Below, in pieces: positions 6,823 through 46,080 of a stretch of 46,411 nt of DNA; the stretch's first letter is position 1; each line of letters begins with the position of its first letter. The notes under the pieces are model-generated. The model was not told the DNA's origin, made no database searches, and was given only the letters and a program-made list of their open reading frames with translations. The translations under genes and the position numbers were made by a program. The stretch is from a virus. Location of the stretch: positions 1-46,411 of the IMG/VR virus record IMGVR_UViG_3300037492_000204; one strand, given 5' to 3'.

Positions 6823-7491
6823 ATGACTACTATAAACGAATCTATATCTAGAATAAGAAACACAGCAAAGGCTGTTAAGGAAGATGCTTTCTTAACTGAT
6901 CGTTTTGTGTACAGCTTAATCTTAAAGTATGCGAAAGTTCTAATTCGTAGACAAGATAATGAAAACAAAATCATGAGATTTCAGAGTTTGTTTGTACCAT
7001 TACCTTGTGTTGAACTTATAGAAGTAGATAAAATCGAAGCATGCTGTACAAGTATTAAAACTGGTTGTACATTCATGCGTACTAAAGATAGATTACCTAA
7101 TGTTCTTGAAGGAGTATACGGACCTTTGTTTAGAAGTATTACTTCTATCGACGGGTCTGTAAACGTTATAAAAACATATCCTGCAACATTTGCTTCTATG
7201 GCCAACTTGCCTAGTTTCAAATACAATACCAATAAATACTATTGGTTTCTTGACGGATATCTTTACCTCCCGAATGTAGAATGGGAATCAATACGCGTAG
7301 AAGCTCTTTGGGAAGATGATATTAGTTACTTTAAATGCGATGAAGAAGTTTGTATTCCAAGACAAGAATCTCCAACACATATACCTGAATATCTATTTGC
7401 AGAAATAGAAGGATTAGTTCTTAAAGATTTAGGATTCACATTACAAATCCCTCAAGAAAGAGGTGATGATAGTCAAAACCAATTAAGATAA
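6823..7491 (+). CDS. Probable tail ring/head-completion protein (P22 gp4-like position), 222 aa
   Basis: The protein has a helical N-terminus (about 1-55), a central beta-rich part, and a C-terminal helix (about 185-210, AEIEGLVLKDLGF). This layout, its size and its place two genes before the large hub protein fit the ring protein/tail accessory factor of crAss-like and P22-like podoviruses, which seals the portal and starts the tail. Three cysteines cluster near residues 60-75. Its stop overlaps the next ATG by one base (TAATG), so translation is probably coupled. The assignment depends on size and gene order more than on a diagnostic motif. Confidence 0.55.
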   Translation: MTTINESISRIRNTAKAVKEDAFLTDRFVYSLILKYAKVLIRRQDNENKIMRFQSLFVPLPCVELIEVDKIEACCTSIKTGCTFMRTKDRLPNVLEGVYGPLFRSITSIDGSVNVIKTYPATFASMANLPSFKYNTNKYYWFLDGYLYLPNVEWESIRVEALWEDDISYFKCDEEVCIPRQESPTHIPEYLFAEIEGLVLKDLGFTLQIPQERGDDSQNQLR

Positions 7492-8462
7492 TGGCTGGAT
7501 ATACTATACAATACAGAACATTCGATCAACTTGTTGATGATGTTAGAGTAGATTTTCAAAACTATACTCTAGAGAATATGATTGAACCACAACAACTAAT
7601 CAAAGTTGCCAAACGTGTAACTTATGATCTAGGACTTCGTGTATTCAAAACTAAAGAAGATGTTCTTGAAGTAAACAATCATAGAGTAAAATTACCAGAT
7701 ACATTTTTCTCTTTAAACTTTGCATTCATGTGCGATGAGTTTACAGTAGAAACTCCTGTAATATCTGGAACACATGTAACTGAAAGACCAATCAAACCAG
7801 TTACTTATCAGTGTGCACCACCAGAAGTTATCGATGTATGTAATACACCAAATCAAACAGAAACTCCTATCCCTTGCGATACTGGTTGTGAAACTGCTTT
7901 TGATCCATGTACTACACAACCTTGTGTAAAACTTAACTGTAAAGGTGAAAAGTTCGAACTTATCGAGATAACAAGAACTTACACTAGAACATATAAAAGG
8001 TTTCATCCGTTACATATTAAAGACAGCGGTAGAACAATCGATTGTGATTGCCCTAATACTAGAGTTAGTTCTCCAAATCAAGCATGGATTAAAGATAACT
8101 ATTTATATACCAACTTCGAATGTGGTAAAGTATATATTAACTATCAAGGAATGCTTGAGAATGACGAAGGTCAGTTATTAGTTGTAGATCACGATCTTAT
8201 AAATGAATACTATGAGTATGCATTAAAAGAAAGAATACTTGAGAACTTATTATTTAACGATGAACCGGTAGATAAAAAACTTCAGTATGTTCAACAAAAA
8301 CTACATGTAGCAAGAAGACAAGCTGTATCATTAGTTAATATGCCAAACTTTAACGAGTTAAAACAATTGTGGGAAACAAACCGACGTGCTCAATATCACA
8401 AATATGTTGACATGTTTAAGTCGTACGAACCTTTAGGATTTAATAGCAATGGCTGGTACTAG
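7491..8462 (+). CDS. Probable tail ring protein 2/tail tube component, 323 aa
   Basis: The first 90 residues contain helices and strands. Residues about 110-195 hold a Cys-rich insertion with more than ten cysteines (for example CDTGCE, CTTQPC, CDC), probably a metal- or disulfide-stabilised knob. The C-terminal 90 residues are helical (LKERILENLLF, then LHVARRQAV), as in tail connector proteins. It is coupled by one base to the preceding ring-type gene. Its TAG stop lies inside the start of the hub gene, a 14-base overlap. The order ring 1, ring 2, hub is that of crAss-like tails, and this supports the call. The Cys insertion is an oddity for a connector. Confidence 0.5.
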   Translation: MAGYTIQYRTFDQLVDDVRVDFQNYTLENMIEPQQLIKVAKRVTYDLGLRVFKTKEDVLEVNNHRVKLPDTFFSLNFAFMCDEFTVETPVISGTHVTERPIKPVTYQCAPPEVIDVCNTPNQTETPIPCDTGCETAFDPCTTQPCVKLNCKGEKFELIEITRTYTRTYKRFHPLHIKDSGRTIDCDCPNTRVSSPNQAWIKDNYLYTNFECGKVYINYQGMLENDEGQLLVVDHDLINEYYEYALKERILENLLFNDEPVDKKLQYVQQKLHVARRQAVSLVNMPNFNELKQLWETNRRAQYHKYVDMFKSYEPLGFNSNGWY

Positions 8463-41335: not shown

Positions 41336-42052
41336 TTATTGTTTGTACTTCCAGTAAAATCCAACGGATTTACTATTATTTTTAATAGCTTTCCATATAG
41401 CCTTATAACTAACATTATAAAAATCAGCAGCATCTGTTGTTAAGTACCATTCTTTTATAATAGTTCCTTCTTCAGACAGTTGTAATACTCTTTTATTGAT
41501 TTTTTCGAGCCTTCCTTTAAGCAAAGAATCTAATTGTTTAATGTTTAGTTTCTTACCAACTGAATACTTATTACCTCTATTTTTAGCAGCAACTTTTTTA
41601 TAATGTTCTATGTTATTAGCAATAGGATGTCTACCTTCTGAGTATGCTAATAACAACTTATTACTTATTTTTGACTTTGTAGATTTTAAACATTCTCTAC
41701 CGGTATTTGATATAGCTATTTTATCTTTAGTTTCTTGAGATTGATTACTAATACCAGTAGGCGAAGTTGGCTTTATATTAAAGCCAAAATCTTTGTTATG
41801 AGTATTGAGTAATAAACACCAAAAATTTTCAAAAGAACAAATATACTCTATTGGATATTCCTCAAGAAGTTCGAATGTAAAGTTGTCAATACCATAACTA
41901 TCTACAGATCTTTGTAAATGATGATTATTATGTTTACCTGAAAGTAGAGACCTTTTATGATCATTAAGTCTAGCATATACATTAATAGACTTACCTATAT
42001 AAACTTTTTTGTTTATTAGATTTGTTATAATATATACACCAGACTTGATCAT
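41336..42052 (-). CDS. GIY-YIG homing endonuclease with NUMOD-type DNA-binding tail, 238 aa
   Basis: The GIY-YIG nuclease core is clear: GVY at 5-7, YIG at 18-20, R28 and H32 on the following helix, and E75 (SFENFW) as the metal-binding acid. Residues about 105-130 (ETKDKIAISNTG) match the NUMOD3 pattern, and 188-238 look like a helix-turn-helix NUMOD1/IENR module ending in GFYWKYK. The ATG at 42052 is preferred; an in-frame TTG lies at 42058. It is free-standing and wedged, with 10-12 base gaps, between the 180-aa and MazG-like genes. Such genes spread by cutting alleles that lack them. It is probably a selfish passenger in this operon. Confidence 0.85.
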   Translation of the reverse strand: MIKSGVYIITNLINKKVYIGKSINVYARLNDHKRSLLSGKHNNHHLQRSVDSYGIDNFTFELLEEYPIEYICSFENFWCLLLNTHNKDFGFNIKPTSPTGISNQSQETKDKIAISNTGRECLKSTKSKISNKLLLAYSEGRHPIANNIEHYKKVAAKNRGNKYSVGKKLNIKQLDSLLKGRLEKINKRVLQLSEEGTIIKEWYLTTDAADFYNVSYKAIWKAIKNNSKSVGFYWKYKQ

Positions 42053-42064
42053 AAGCAAATATAC

Positions 42065-42607
42065 TTATTTTACAGTATATTTTATTCCTTTTACTATGAA
42101 AAAGTTTATACTTCTTGGATCAACTAATCTTGTACGAGTATCATAATCTTTACCTGCATCACGTACTTCTTCCATATCGATGAAGCTAACACGACCTAAG
42201 TCATTTAACTCACCGTTATGTCTTCCTACCATGGTACGAGCTTCACCAACTAAACCAGTTTTAATGGTTTTCTTAAGTTTTGTTTCAAACTCTTTTGGTG
42301 TTGAGTTACCATAGGTATCCATGATTTCTTTTACAACATCTGCTTCTTTAACTTGTTTGTTAAAGTTAACTGTAATAGCAACATCAGGATTAGCTAAGAA
42401 CTTAGCTGCAGCTTCTGTTTTGTTTACAGTTACATCTTTAGTAAACTGGTTTGCAGATAATAAACAAGATTCAGCATAGTTTTTATCTACTACGATGTTT
42501 GTACCTTGATCATTCTTTAATTGCACTTTACCAGCATTAATGGCTTCTACAGTATAAAACTGTGTTTCTGAAAGGACATCGCCTTTTTTTAATAGTTTAA
42601 AGTTCAT
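42065..42607 (-). CDS. Unrecognised protein next to the VWA-MoxR genes, 180 aa
   Basis: The first 50 residues (LLKKGDVLSETQFYTVEAI, then KVQLKNDQGTNIVV) look like a small SH3-like or KOW-like beta barrel. The rest is mixed alpha/beta with a VVKEIMDTYGN helix and a conserved-looking RTMVGRHNGELNDLGRVSF segment. It starts 2 bases after the stop of the 482-aa VWA protein, so it is probably made with it and may act as an adaptor or substrate. No catalytic motif is recognised. Confidence 0.55.
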   Translation of the reverse strand: MNFKLLKKGDVLSETQFYTVEAINAGKVQLKNDQGTNIVVDKNYAESCLLSANQFTKDVTVNKTEAAAKFLANPDVAITVNFNKQVKEADVVKEIMDTYGNSTPKEFETKLKKTIKTGLVGEARTMVGRHNGELNDLGRVSFIDMEEVRDAGKDYDTRTRLVDPRSINFFIVKGIKYTVK

Positions 42608-42609
42608 CT

Positions 42610-44058
42610 TTAATGTTTAATTTTTAATACTGATTTACCGTCGTAAGTAGTCATTGAGTCTGTATTGGCTACAACATACTTACCTTTATTTTTTATACAT
42701 AAGTCTCTAAGCTCTCCATTATCTTGAAATAACGATATAGCATTAGTTTTGTATGTAAAGTTTTGTGTTTTGATACTGTCTTGACCATCATTGATAGCAA
42801 GAATCTCAGGCATGTCTTTAGACAAATCTATTGGTAGATTTACCAACCATTTACCACCTTTAATATCTTGACCGATTCTGTTTACCATATCACCTAAACG
42901 AGTTTCACCACCACTTGGTCTTGTAGAGAATTTACTCCAAAACTCGATAGCGGTATCTCTATTATAGATATGAGTAAACTTTAAAGAGTCAGCACTGTGT
43001 AAGAAGTAACTAAAGAATATTTCAGCTTCTTCTTTTATAGCATGTCTCAATCGATCTAACATAATAGCTACAACCCATTCCTGTTTATCCACTTGATTCA
43101 TACTTCCAGAATAATCTAATAACATAATAATCTTTTGTTTATGTTCTGTTTTATCAACATGAACATCTACTACTAGATCTTTAGTTATCAACTTACTATT
43201 AAAGTTTGGTAACAGTCTTTGATACATTTGAACATTTGCGATTTGAGAATAATCTCTCATGATTCTTTGAGCTAATATTCGAGAGTTATCAACTACTTTT
43301 TCTTCAACTTCTTTCTCGATTTTAAACTCAGATCCTAGATTCTGAACCATAGATATTTTAGATAAAATATTCATCTTACGATTTTTGAGTTCGCTTACAT
43401 CTAATAGTTCATTATAAATAGGATCACCATAAGTTTTCTCATCAAAACGCATCTTTTCTAATGCTCTGTCTAAGTTTTGAGCTTGCTTTACATCCAATTT
43501 AGGATCTAAATCAGTAAGCTCATTTATAACAGCAATTGCTTTTTCTAATGGAGACATTCCTGGGATATACTTATCCCATAAGTCATTGTAGAATTTCTTC
43601 TTAGATGACAAGGCTACGATATCTGATTCAGACAACTTAGTAAGATCTTTATACTTTGTTTCAAAGTAATCCTTCTCACCAAGCATTCTGTAGTAAAAGA
43701 ACCTAGCCATTTCTTTGACTAAGTTTCTATTATCGTAAGTATTGTTGCTACCATTAAGTCGGTACATGATCTCAGTATGTGTAGGTGTAAAGTAACTTTC
43801 GTGACTCTTTACATACAATCCTGAATCATTGTCTTCTAATGTTGACGAACCGCCAAAACTCCCCCAACTCCAGTTGTTTTGATAATACGGGTTGTTATAA
43901 TATTCTCTATCATAATAACCACCGCTATTACCACGATGATAATAATCTTCATCATAGTAATTTGTATTTTTCTTACTTCCCTTTTTCGAGGATTTTTTGG
44001 TTGCAGCTTTCTTAGAGTATCCTCTTTCGAAAGCTGTATAACCTATCCCGTTTCCCAT
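42610..44058 (-). CDS. VWA-domain protein, MoxR partner, with Tyr-rich N-terminus, 482 aa
   Basis: The C-terminal VWA domain has an intact metal-ion-dependent adhesion site: DYSGSM at 315-320, T386 in GGETRL, and D424 in INDGQD. Such domains bind a protein ligand through a divalent metal. The middle region (about 110-300) is helical. Residues 33-70 are rich in Tyr, Asn and Gly, with basic KK/SS repeats before them, so the first 75 residues are probably disordered. It lies 2 bases downstream of the MoxR ATPase and is oriented the same way. VWA proteins paired with MoxR AAA+ ATPases serve as remodelling or chaperone cofactors. What this one acts on is not shown. Confidence 0.75.
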   Translation of the reverse strand: MGNGIGYTAFERGYSKKAATKKSSKKGSKKNTNYYDEDYYHRGNSGGYYDREYYNNPYYQNNWSWGSFGGSSTLEDNDSGLYVKSHESYFTPTHTEIMYRLNGSNNTYDNRNLVKEMARFFYYRMLGEKDYFETKYKDLTKLSESDIVALSSKKKFYNDLWDKYIPGMSPLEKAIAVINELTDLDPKLDVKQAQNLDRALEKMRFDEKTYGDPIYNELLDVSELKNRKMNILSKISMVQNLGSEFKIEKEVEEKVVDNSRILAQRIMRDYSQIANVQMYQRLLPNFNSKLITKDLVVDVHVDKTEHKQKIIMLLDYSGSMNQVDKQEWVVAIMLDRLRHAIKEEAEIFFSYFLHSADSLKFTHIYNRDTAIEFWSKFSTRPSGGETRLGDMVNRIGQDIKGGKWLVNLPIDLSKDMPEILAINDGQDSIKTQNFTYKTNAISLFQDNGELRDLCIKNKGKYVVANTDSMTTYDGKSVLKIKH

Positions 44059-44060
44059 TG

Positions 44061-45245
44061 TTAGAATCCTTCAGATGTATCGTTATTACTTACTGCAAAA
44101 TCTTCTAACATACCAACTACAGATACAACCTTTTTATGTTTATCATAAATAGTTGTATACTTACTGATTGTTTCAGCAGAACTTGAGGCTAAAGAATCAT
44201 CAGCTTTGATAGCTTTGAATGCAGTTAACTCCACAAACAATTGCTTGTTTACTTCTGCAGCAGCTTTAAGATCATCTGCAGTAATTTTAGGCATTGCTTC
44301 GAACTTCTTAACAAGGTCTAACATTACCTGAGTTTTCTTACTGATCTCAATCACACCATTGAACTTAGTAACCGAAGTTTTTAACAACTCTGGTTTAACA
44401 CTAAAGTCAGCAATAAAGCTTAAAGCTTCAGGACCTGATTGTGCAATGATGTCTGCGGCAGCAATAGCAATACGAGGACTAATAATGTTACCCGCACCAG
44501 CATATTGTTCAAGGATGTATGTTAACATAGGATCAGCAAATCCGTTTTTAGTAACGAATAACTTTTCGTATGTAATACGGTTGTGATCTTTCCAGATTAC
44601 TTTATGTTCTAAAGGAAAACGTTCCATTAAAGCTTTTAATGATGTTGTTTTTGAGAACTCTTCACGCGTTTTGTTAGTGCAACAAACAATAACTTTTGTT
44701 TTAATATTGAATACTTGACTACCATTTCTTAACTTACCTGAACTCAAGATATCTTTCAACTGTTCTAAGATATAATCTGGAGCATCAAACAACTCTTCGA
44801 AAATAACATATTCATAGTTCATGAATGAGTTTTCGATTAAGTATTGGATCTTACCTGTTGTATTAAATGCTGGTAAATCTAACCCACCGAATAAACGGTC
44901 TGTAGTTGTACCAGTACCCATTGTAAATACAAATGGTTCTACTCCTTTATCTTCTAGAAATGCTTGAGCATATTCTGATTTACCATATCCACCTGGACCA
45001 TAAAGAATAACATTCTTTTGGTTATTGAAAGAAATTTCCAAAGCCATTTTTGTTTCATCCATGAATACGAATGAATCAAGGATGTTTGACTTTACACCTA
45101 GGTTACCTAGTGTTGATTTTTCGTCATTTTTTTCTACTTTAGTACTTGTTGTAGACTTCGCTACAGTTCCTACTACTTTTACACTTTTTTTTGCACCAGT
45201 CTTTGCTGCTGCTTTCTTTGTTGTTGTTGCTACTACTTCTGCCAT
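44061..45245 (-). CDS. MoxR-type AAA+ ATPase, 394 aa
   Basis: An ATP-driven remodelling enzyme. The Walker A motif is GPGGYGKS (83-90), Walker B is YVIFEE (146-151), a sensor-1 asparagine is N191 (CCTN), and an arginine-finger candidate is R209 (MERF). The lid and helical region follow to about 345. The first 45 residues are a low-complexity Lys/Ala/Thr tail. It lies between two VWA genes with gaps of 10 and 2 bases, the arrangement seen in MoxR-VWA systems, where the ATPase works with VWA proteins to insert cofactors, mature complexes or act in conflict systems. A phage-specific target is likely but unknown. Confidence 0.8.
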   Translation of the reverse strand: MAEVVATTTKKAAAKTGAKKSVKVVGTVAKSTTSTKVEKNDEKSTLGNLGVKSNILDSFVFMDETKMALEISFNNQKNVILYGPGGYGKSEYAQAFLEDKGVEPFVFTMGTGTTTDRLFGGLDLPAFNTTGKIQYLIENSFMNYEYVIFEELFDAPDYILEQLKDILSSGKLRNGSQVFNIKTKVIVCCTNKTREEFSKTTSLKALMERFPLEHKVIWKDHNRITYEKLFVTKNGFADPMLTYILEQYAGAGNIISPRIAIAAADIIAQSGPEALSFIADFSVKPELLKTSVTKFNGVIEISKKTQVMLDLVKKFEAMPKITADDLKAAAEVNKQLFVELTAFKAIKADDSLASSSAETISKYTTIYDKHKKVVSVVGMLEDFAVSNNDTSEGF

Positions 45246-45255
45246 TTGTTTTTGA

Positions 45256-46080
45256 TTAAAGGGTTCCTACTTCTTTATAGAAGTTTACTTTTACATCACG
45301 ACCTTCAGCTACATTAGATGAAAAGGTTTGTCGTGAAGACATTGTTTTTGCGAATGCTCTTGTCATACCAGCACCTGTGTTATCATGTACTAATGTATTT
45401 GAAGCATCAATATTTAAGTTACGTTGAGAACGTTCAACATCGTACTGTGTACCTACAAATGTTACAGTAAAGTTATGTTTCTCTTGTACTAATTTTAATG
45501 TTTTTGGTAAGTTTCTGAATCTACCGAAACCATCTGTATCATCACCATCTGTTACAATGTTTAATAATACTTTATGTTCTTTACCTACAATCTTTAAAAC
45601 ACTTTCGATAGTTTCTCCGATTGTTATAAATAATGGTGTACCACCTAAACGAGTATGTCCATTGTATATAACATCTCTAGGGTTTTCCATCCAGATAACT
45701 CTTCCTCTGTTTAAATCTATAATAGATATTGTATTATCAGTTAGAGTATCTTGTTTGATAGATTTTACCAATTCTTGAATACCTTTTACACCATTTTCAT
45801 ACTTTGCACCACGCATTGATCCAGAATCATCCATAATAAATACATTATGAATAGTTTGTTTTATACGAGATGCTTTGATTTTAGATACAACTTTAGGAGC
45901 TGCTTTTTTTGCAGCTTTCTTAGGAGTTGCTTTAGCACCAGTTACAACAGGTGTTGTACTAGCAAGTGCTATTAGATATGCAGATTCGGTTTTATAACCG
46001 GCTAACGTAAGGATTCTAGCCTTACGATCTTTATTAGACTTTTTATAAGCCTTTAAAAGTTCAAGATTTGATTTTGCCAT
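45256..46080 (-). CDS. Second VWA-domain protein, 274 aa
   Basis: The VWA domain has a full metal-binding site: DDSGSM at 84-89, T148 in GGTPL, and D178 in VTDGDD. Residues 50-72 are a Lys/Ala-rich linker (ATPKKAAKKAAPKVVSK), with a helical Lys-rich segment before it. It precedes the MoxR gene by 10 bases. It differs in size and linker from the 482-aa VWA protein, so the two are not recent copies. The ATG at 46080 lies inside the end of the upstream 55-aa ORF, so translation may be coupled. Confidence 0.75.
   Translation of the reverse strand: MAKSNLELLKAYKKSNKDRKARILTLAGYKTESAYLIALASTTPVVTGAKATPKKAAKKAAPKVVSKIKASRIKQTIHNVFIMDDSGSMRGAKYENGVKGIQELVKSIKQDTLTDNTISIIDLNRGRVIWMENPRDVIYNGHTRLGGTPLFITIGETIESVLKIVGKEHKVLLNIVTDGDDTDGFGRFRNLPKTLKLVQEKHNFTVTFVGTQYDVERSQRNLNIDASNTLVHDNTGAGMTRAFAKTMSSRQTFSSNVAEGRDVKVNFYKEVGTL

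Follow-up and report, generated by a model that had tools for sequence, protein, structure and literature searches.

In the cellular NorQ-NorD system, NorD consists of an N-terminal domain, a linker, and a C-terminal VWA domain; a finger of this VWA domain enters the pore of the NorQ ring, the C terminus touches the ring, and in the proposed mechanism ATP hydrolysis twists and stretches the linker (PMC13036017). In jumbo phages of group 2.2, the VWA protein of the MoxR-vWA pair also bears a metallopeptidase domain, and a role in virion assembly has been proposed for the pair; the MoxR-vWA of an archaeal virus, the Acidianus two-tailed virus, is associated with tail development (PMC7824862). 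Phage MoxR-VWA pairs are therefore already known from jumbo phages and an archaeal virus, and the pair described here from crAss-like phages is a new variant. We consider it probable, at about 65%, that the four-gene locus in which it was found comprises two independent modules side by side: module 1, a MoxR-VWA remodelling chaperone, and module 2, a separate crAss-like gene pair.

The window, which is the whole stretch of DNA analysed (an IMG/VR record of 46,411 bases), is a fragment of a crAss-like phage, a relative of crAssphage. One window protein passed the CrAss_Ring_2 cut-off (70.4 vs. 27 bits), and two ORFs of 3347 and 1902 aa matched the giant RNA polymerase-type proteins of phages phi14:2 and crAss001 (1e-26 to phi14:2 gp077 and 2e-12 to crAss001 gp50 for the longer ORF); the crAss-type tail ring protein together with these ORFs places the window in the Crassvirales. 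The plus strand carries the structural genes. The four-gene block faces them from the minus strand, and genes for MazG and a GIY-YIG endonuclease lie in between. The endonuclease gene (41336 to 42058; phrog_314, 5.8e-30) is of the free-standing homing type, lies between the gp51-like gene described below and MazG, and overlaps the 5′ end of the listed MazG ORF by 98 bases.

The four genes that a sequence-only reading had located in this block were confirmed as minus-strand ORFs in the order VWA1 (45256 to 46080), MoxR-like ATPase (44061 to 45245), VWA2 (42610 to 44058), and a 180-aa protein (42065 to 42607), separated by 10, 2, and 2 bases. Such a contiguous arrangement on one strand is what would be expected if all four products acted together in one machine, with the 180-aa protein as its effector or client, and the sequence-only reading had proposed a single active machine. 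The evidence given below supports this proposal for the ATPase and VWA2 but not for the four genes as a unit.

The 394-aa ATPase of module 1 scored above the Pfam cut-offs for bpMoxR (46.3 vs. 27 bits, 3.4e-12) and AAA_5 (34.1 vs. 22 bits, 3.2e-8), its best solved relative was RavA (profile E 5e-13), and a MoxR-class profile was matched at E ≤ 0.001 by 41 of 41 homologues. The P-loop, acidic Walker B, sensor 1 Asn, Arg finger, and sensor 2 Arg of a MoxR ATPase were all present. The Walker motifs had been described as intact, and this was correct for the canonical Walker A, GPGGYGKS (residues 83 to 90; 44976 to 44999, minus strand), in which G83, G86, and K89 were invariant in 41 homologues. 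The Walker B, VIFEE (residues 147 to 151; 44793 to 44807, minus strand), departs from the canonical form throughout the family: when aligned to the VFLDE of RavA, the first Glu occupies the position of the RavA Asp, and Glu-Glu was present in all 73 parsed homologues and Asp-Glu in none of the 73. It was found that G83, G86, K89, E150, E151, N191, R209, and R258 were invariant in alignment A7, where the invariance of VIxEExFDA is partly by construction because this pattern served to collect loci; for E150 and E151, the invariance stems partly from the search pattern, and the Glu-Glu pair also held in a scan that used patterns from three regions. The Glu-Glu Walker B could lower the rate of ATP hydrolysis by the ATPase.

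A tblastn search with the ATPase against 50,697 named phages yielded no crAss-like ATPase, and the ATPase profile found none in nine named crAss-like genomes; one weak partial match in a 790-aa frame of crAss001 was taken as noise. Matches to the Walker A pattern in genome collections (Spirulina, Couchioplanes, and Anaerolineae) were at best weakly similar to the ATPase and were set aside.

VWA2 (482 aa, module 1) is encoded directly downstream of the ATPase, and its AlphaFold2 model has a VWA fold (best Z 13.1), the protein itself being below the Pfam VWA cut-off (E 0.0095). The model shows a disordered N terminus (residues 1 to 90), helices in the middle, and the VWA domain at the C-terminal end (about residues 301 to 481); confidence was modest overall (mean pLDDT 65.7) and 75 to 94 for most of the VWA part. 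The MIDAS motif is DYSGS (residues 315 to 319; 43102 to 43116, minus strand), and the site is complete, with D315, S317, S319, and D424 conserved in all 30 homologues and T386 in 26 of them. Residues 241 to 300, which precede the MIDAS strand, ranked among the most conserved stretches of VWA2. The rows of the VIA-align alignment extend mainly over the VWA domain (246 to 477) and barely sample the helical middle. No match to known families was found for the N-terminal part of VWA2, and a Pfam scan of 30 family members returned VWA models only and no peptidase domain. The first 86 residues (43800 to 44058) are of low complexity and rich in Tyr, Gly, and Ser, and 50 of 74 family members had an aromatic content of at least 20% in their first 60 residues.

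The linkage of the two genes of module 1 was evaluated in IMG/VR. Single-sequence scans with the ATPase, VWA2, or a 505-aa structural protein gave no matches; the Walker A pattern gave one further contig with the pair, the Walker B pattern gave dozens, and a profile scan that drew on patterns in three regions gave 80 ATPase loci. In all 75 of these neighbourhoods that were readable, a gene of the VWA2 family with the DxSxS motif was directly 3′ of the ATPase gene, at a distance of mostly −37 to +24 bases and in a few cases 70 to 78 bases. An ATPase gene adjoining that of a VWA partner with a complete MIDAS is the arrangement of MoxR-VWA chaperone pairs, and this linkage, together with the conserved catalytic and MIDAS residues, supports the ATPase and VWA2 as an active machine.

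Contigs with module 1 that also bore landmark genes (terminase, portal, primase, DnaB, PolA, and UDG) were crAss-like. Replication-type landmarks were on the same strand as the ATPase in 43 of 43 cases, and late landmarks were on the opposite strand in 32 of 32; these counts are not independent, as many of the contigs are close relatives, and they include several lineages with different flanking genes. The ATPase-VWA2 adjacency held even though the flanks varied by lineage, module 1 adjoining primase in contigs L204 to L214 and lying several kb from terminase in L143 to L181. The possibility that module 1 is a virion-assembly chaperone, which the sequence-only reading had also mentioned and which has precedents in the jumbo-phage pair and the Acidianus two-tailed virus (PMC7824862), is disfavoured by this location among replication genes, with 0 of 32 late landmarks on the ATPase strand, and by the lack of any peptidase domain from Pfam in VWA2 family members. 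Since proteins made early may nonetheless help in assembly, the strand evidence only makes such a role less likely; we regard it as improbable.

At 19 loci of one lineage (for example, L029:4373-4870), a conserved protein with IFSFDHGQKKLNKAIGV near its start and an acidic tail was encoded immediately or almost immediately upstream of the ATPase; it was absent from the other lineages with module 1. This protein, the sole candidate client, is a possible client or adaptor in that lineage.

Module 2 consists of VWA1 and the 180-aa protein. VWA1 (274 aa, minus strand) matched phrog_7371 (2.4e-9) and was below the Pfam VWA cut-off (E 0.017), and its homologue in contig L013 passed that cut-off (25.2 vs. 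23.8 bits). Its MIDAS motif is DDSGS (residues 84 to 88; 45817 to 45831), and D84, S86, S88, T148, and D178 were invariant in the three rows of alignment A5, so that both VWA1 and VWA2 have all five residues of the metal-binding site, as had been read from the DNA. The 180-aa protein, which had been called unrecognised, is in fact a homologue of crAss001 gp51 and IAS gene 51 (phmmer 1.4e-8), full-length and collinear with gp51, with 17 invariant columns in 12 members, and one record labels a relative as gene51_IAS. The two closest relatives, in contigs L012 and L013, were 54% and 52% identical, and weak tblastn matches were found in 36 phage records, all of which were crAss-like. Weak C-terminal matches in L198 to L200 (E 0.0025 to 0.004) belonged to an 87-aa protein of phrog_2267 and were not counted.

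In L012, L013, L189, and L192, the gene immediately upstream of the gp51-like one encodes a VWA1 homologue. In the named phages, the VWA gene gp52 of crAss001 is directly upstream of gp51, the VWA gene beside the gp51-like gene of cr128_1 is broken into pieces, and no VWA gene was seen beside the gp51-like gene in DAC15, cr126_1, cr111_1, cr85_1, and frurule. In cr106_1, a structure match brought to light a single 468-aa ORF (L225:2221-3627, QOR58338.1) in which a gp52-like VWA (residues 1 to 255) and a gp51-like protein (residues 261 to 468) are fused with no intervening stop. There was no detectable homology between VWA1 and crAss001 gp52 beyond the VWA fold, and therefore the VWA1-gp51 and gp52-gp51 pairs could be convergent. 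The neighbours of module 2 are replication and recombination genes, and in gut phages an RNA polymerase gene adjoins it. A model of the gp51-like protein (pLDDT 83.5) had no convincing match in the PDB (best E 0.02); the weak matches were to tandem Tudor and MscS beta domains and therefore suggest that the protein may contain SH3/Tudor-like barrels.

Other genes near gp51-like genes or in the same genomes were recorded as well. In L192 (17647-20471), the VWA1-gp51 pair is followed directly by TerC (PF03741, 9e-42), then a 234-aa protein, and then two TerD proteins with PF02342 matches of up to 4.5e-76. The gp51-like gene of L014 has the gene of a different VWA protein (7459-8343; motif DVTGSM) a few genes upstream, and an adenylosuccinate synthetase-like gene separates the two. 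In crAss001 (L005:31394-33792), a ThiF/E1-like protein adjoins a protein with a sub-threshold JAB match (gp76-gp77), possibly a ubiquitin-type pair unrelated to the MoxR-VWA finding.

The two modules were rarely found together. The gp51-like profile was clear in only 2 of 54 ATPase contigs, L189 and L192 (23 of the 54 exceed 100 kb), and the VWA1 profile was clear in the same two, the second batch of contigs having been covered over fetched flanks only; because contigs may be fragments, gene absences are soft. In L189 and L192, VWA1 and the gp51-like gene are adjacent to each other on the same strand as module 1 and about 4.2 and 3.4 kb, respectively, downstream of VWA2. Conversely, no ATPase was found anywhere in the L012 and L013 contigs (156 and 165 kb), where VWA1 and the gp51-like gene are adjacent. 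The window was the only case seen in which module 1 separates the two genes of module 2. In a tree of the ATPases, the window grouped with L139 and outside the L189/L192 group, a tentative placement given several long branches. Most simply, module 1 would have been inserted between VWA1 and the gp51-like gene. The sequence-only reading had named unlinked genes in relatives as a refutation; the relatives surveyed bear this out for VWA1 and the 180-aa protein but not for the ATPase and VWA2. That L189 and L192 have both modules on one strand, no more than about 4 kb apart, is in keeping with a joint machine of all four products, but the modules stand apart in these two contigs, none of the other ATPase contigs searched (54 in all) clearly has VWA1 or the gp51-like gene, and VWA-gp51 pairs and one fusion exist without the ATPase. 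The four genes are two separate modules and not one triad, and we consider a four-gene machine distinctly improbable.

The order of parts in VWA2 is like that of NorD and residues 241 to 300 are conserved; from this we infer that a ring and a VWA protein make up a remodelling chaperone. The likeliest form is a chaperone of ATPase and VWA2 that resembles NorQD and RavA-ViaA and is made together with replication proteins. The ATPase would form a hexameric AAA+ ring docked on the VWA domain at the C-terminal end of VWA2, and the ring, moved by ATP, would pull on or twist VWA2, as described for NorQ-NorD, while the helical middle and the disordered, aromatic-rich N terminus of VWA2 may hold the client. 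Residues 241 to 300 are a plausible pore finger, because this highly conserved stretch sits where NorD has its finger. Since module 1 is encoded with replication genes, the virion is a less likely client than a host protein or a phage factor for replication or transcription. In module 2, a single-domain VWA protein may partner a small protein with SH3/Tudor-like barrels, encoded among genes of DNA metabolism.

Takeover and counter-defence had been raised by the sequence-only reading as well: a host target could also be a defence complex that module 1 disarms, or module 1 might exclude rival phages. A role in conflicts has been predicted for some of the cellular MoxR-vWA systems (PMC7159879), module 1 is placed with early genes and has a patchy distribution, and Ter stress-response genes come after module 2 in one contig. 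However, no effector domain was found in VWA2, PADLOC gave no meaningful match, and Ter genes were present in only 1 of 28 contigs searched (L192); a role in conflict is therefore doubtful, although less so than virion assembly. Beyond the remodelling chaperone in the window, we tentatively suggest, at somewhat less than even odds, that many crAss-like phages carry an early AAA+/VWA machine, marked by the Glu-Glu Walker B, that remodels the replication or transcription apparatus or dismantles a host complex. If true, this would contrast with the phage and virus MoxR-VWA pairs so far tied to virion assembly.

CrAss-like phages are abundant, and most of their genes are unexplained. No report that combined crAss-like phages with MoxR, VWA, or von Willebrand was found in a literature search that was thin on subscription journals and preprints. 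The useful results are the division of the triad into two modules, the strand rule, the Glu-Glu signature, and the VWA-gp51 fusion. They define, in lineages outside the named genomes, a chaperone-like module of two genes that recurs and has sequence signatures by which it can be found. They also argue that module 1 does not share the part in virion assembly suggested for other phage MoxR-VWA pairs, and they make its function testable with two genes instead of four.

In comparison with known systems, the best Pfam model for the ATPase domain is that of the beta-propeller MoxR-vWA ternary systems (PF20030, PMC7159879), and no match to a beta-propeller was found among VWA1, VWA2, the 180-aa protein, and the window neighbours. 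Module 2 is like crAss001 gp52-gp51 in that a VWA gene immediately precedes a gp51-like gene at the end of the early operon; crAss001 differs from the window in that its pair has no MoxR ATPase and its gp52 is not detectably related to VWA1 beyond the VWA fold. Like the group 2.2 jumbo phages, the window phage encodes a MoxR ATPase adjoining a VWA protein, but VWA2 has no peptidase match (30 members) and the pair sits with replication genes. The virus-encoded MoxR-vWA of the Acidianus two-tailed virus likewise lacks a peptidase, a likeness by description and not by sequence. As in NorQ-NorD, CbbQ-CbbO, and RavA-ViaA, module 1 combines a MoxR-type ATPase with a VWA partner that has an extra N-terminal domain and a C-terminal MIDAS VWA. 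Unlike these cellular pairs, it has no known client enzyme nearby, the N-terminal part of VWA2, with its disordered tail rich in aromatic residues, resembles no known family, and the module is phage-borne with a Glu-Glu Walker B.
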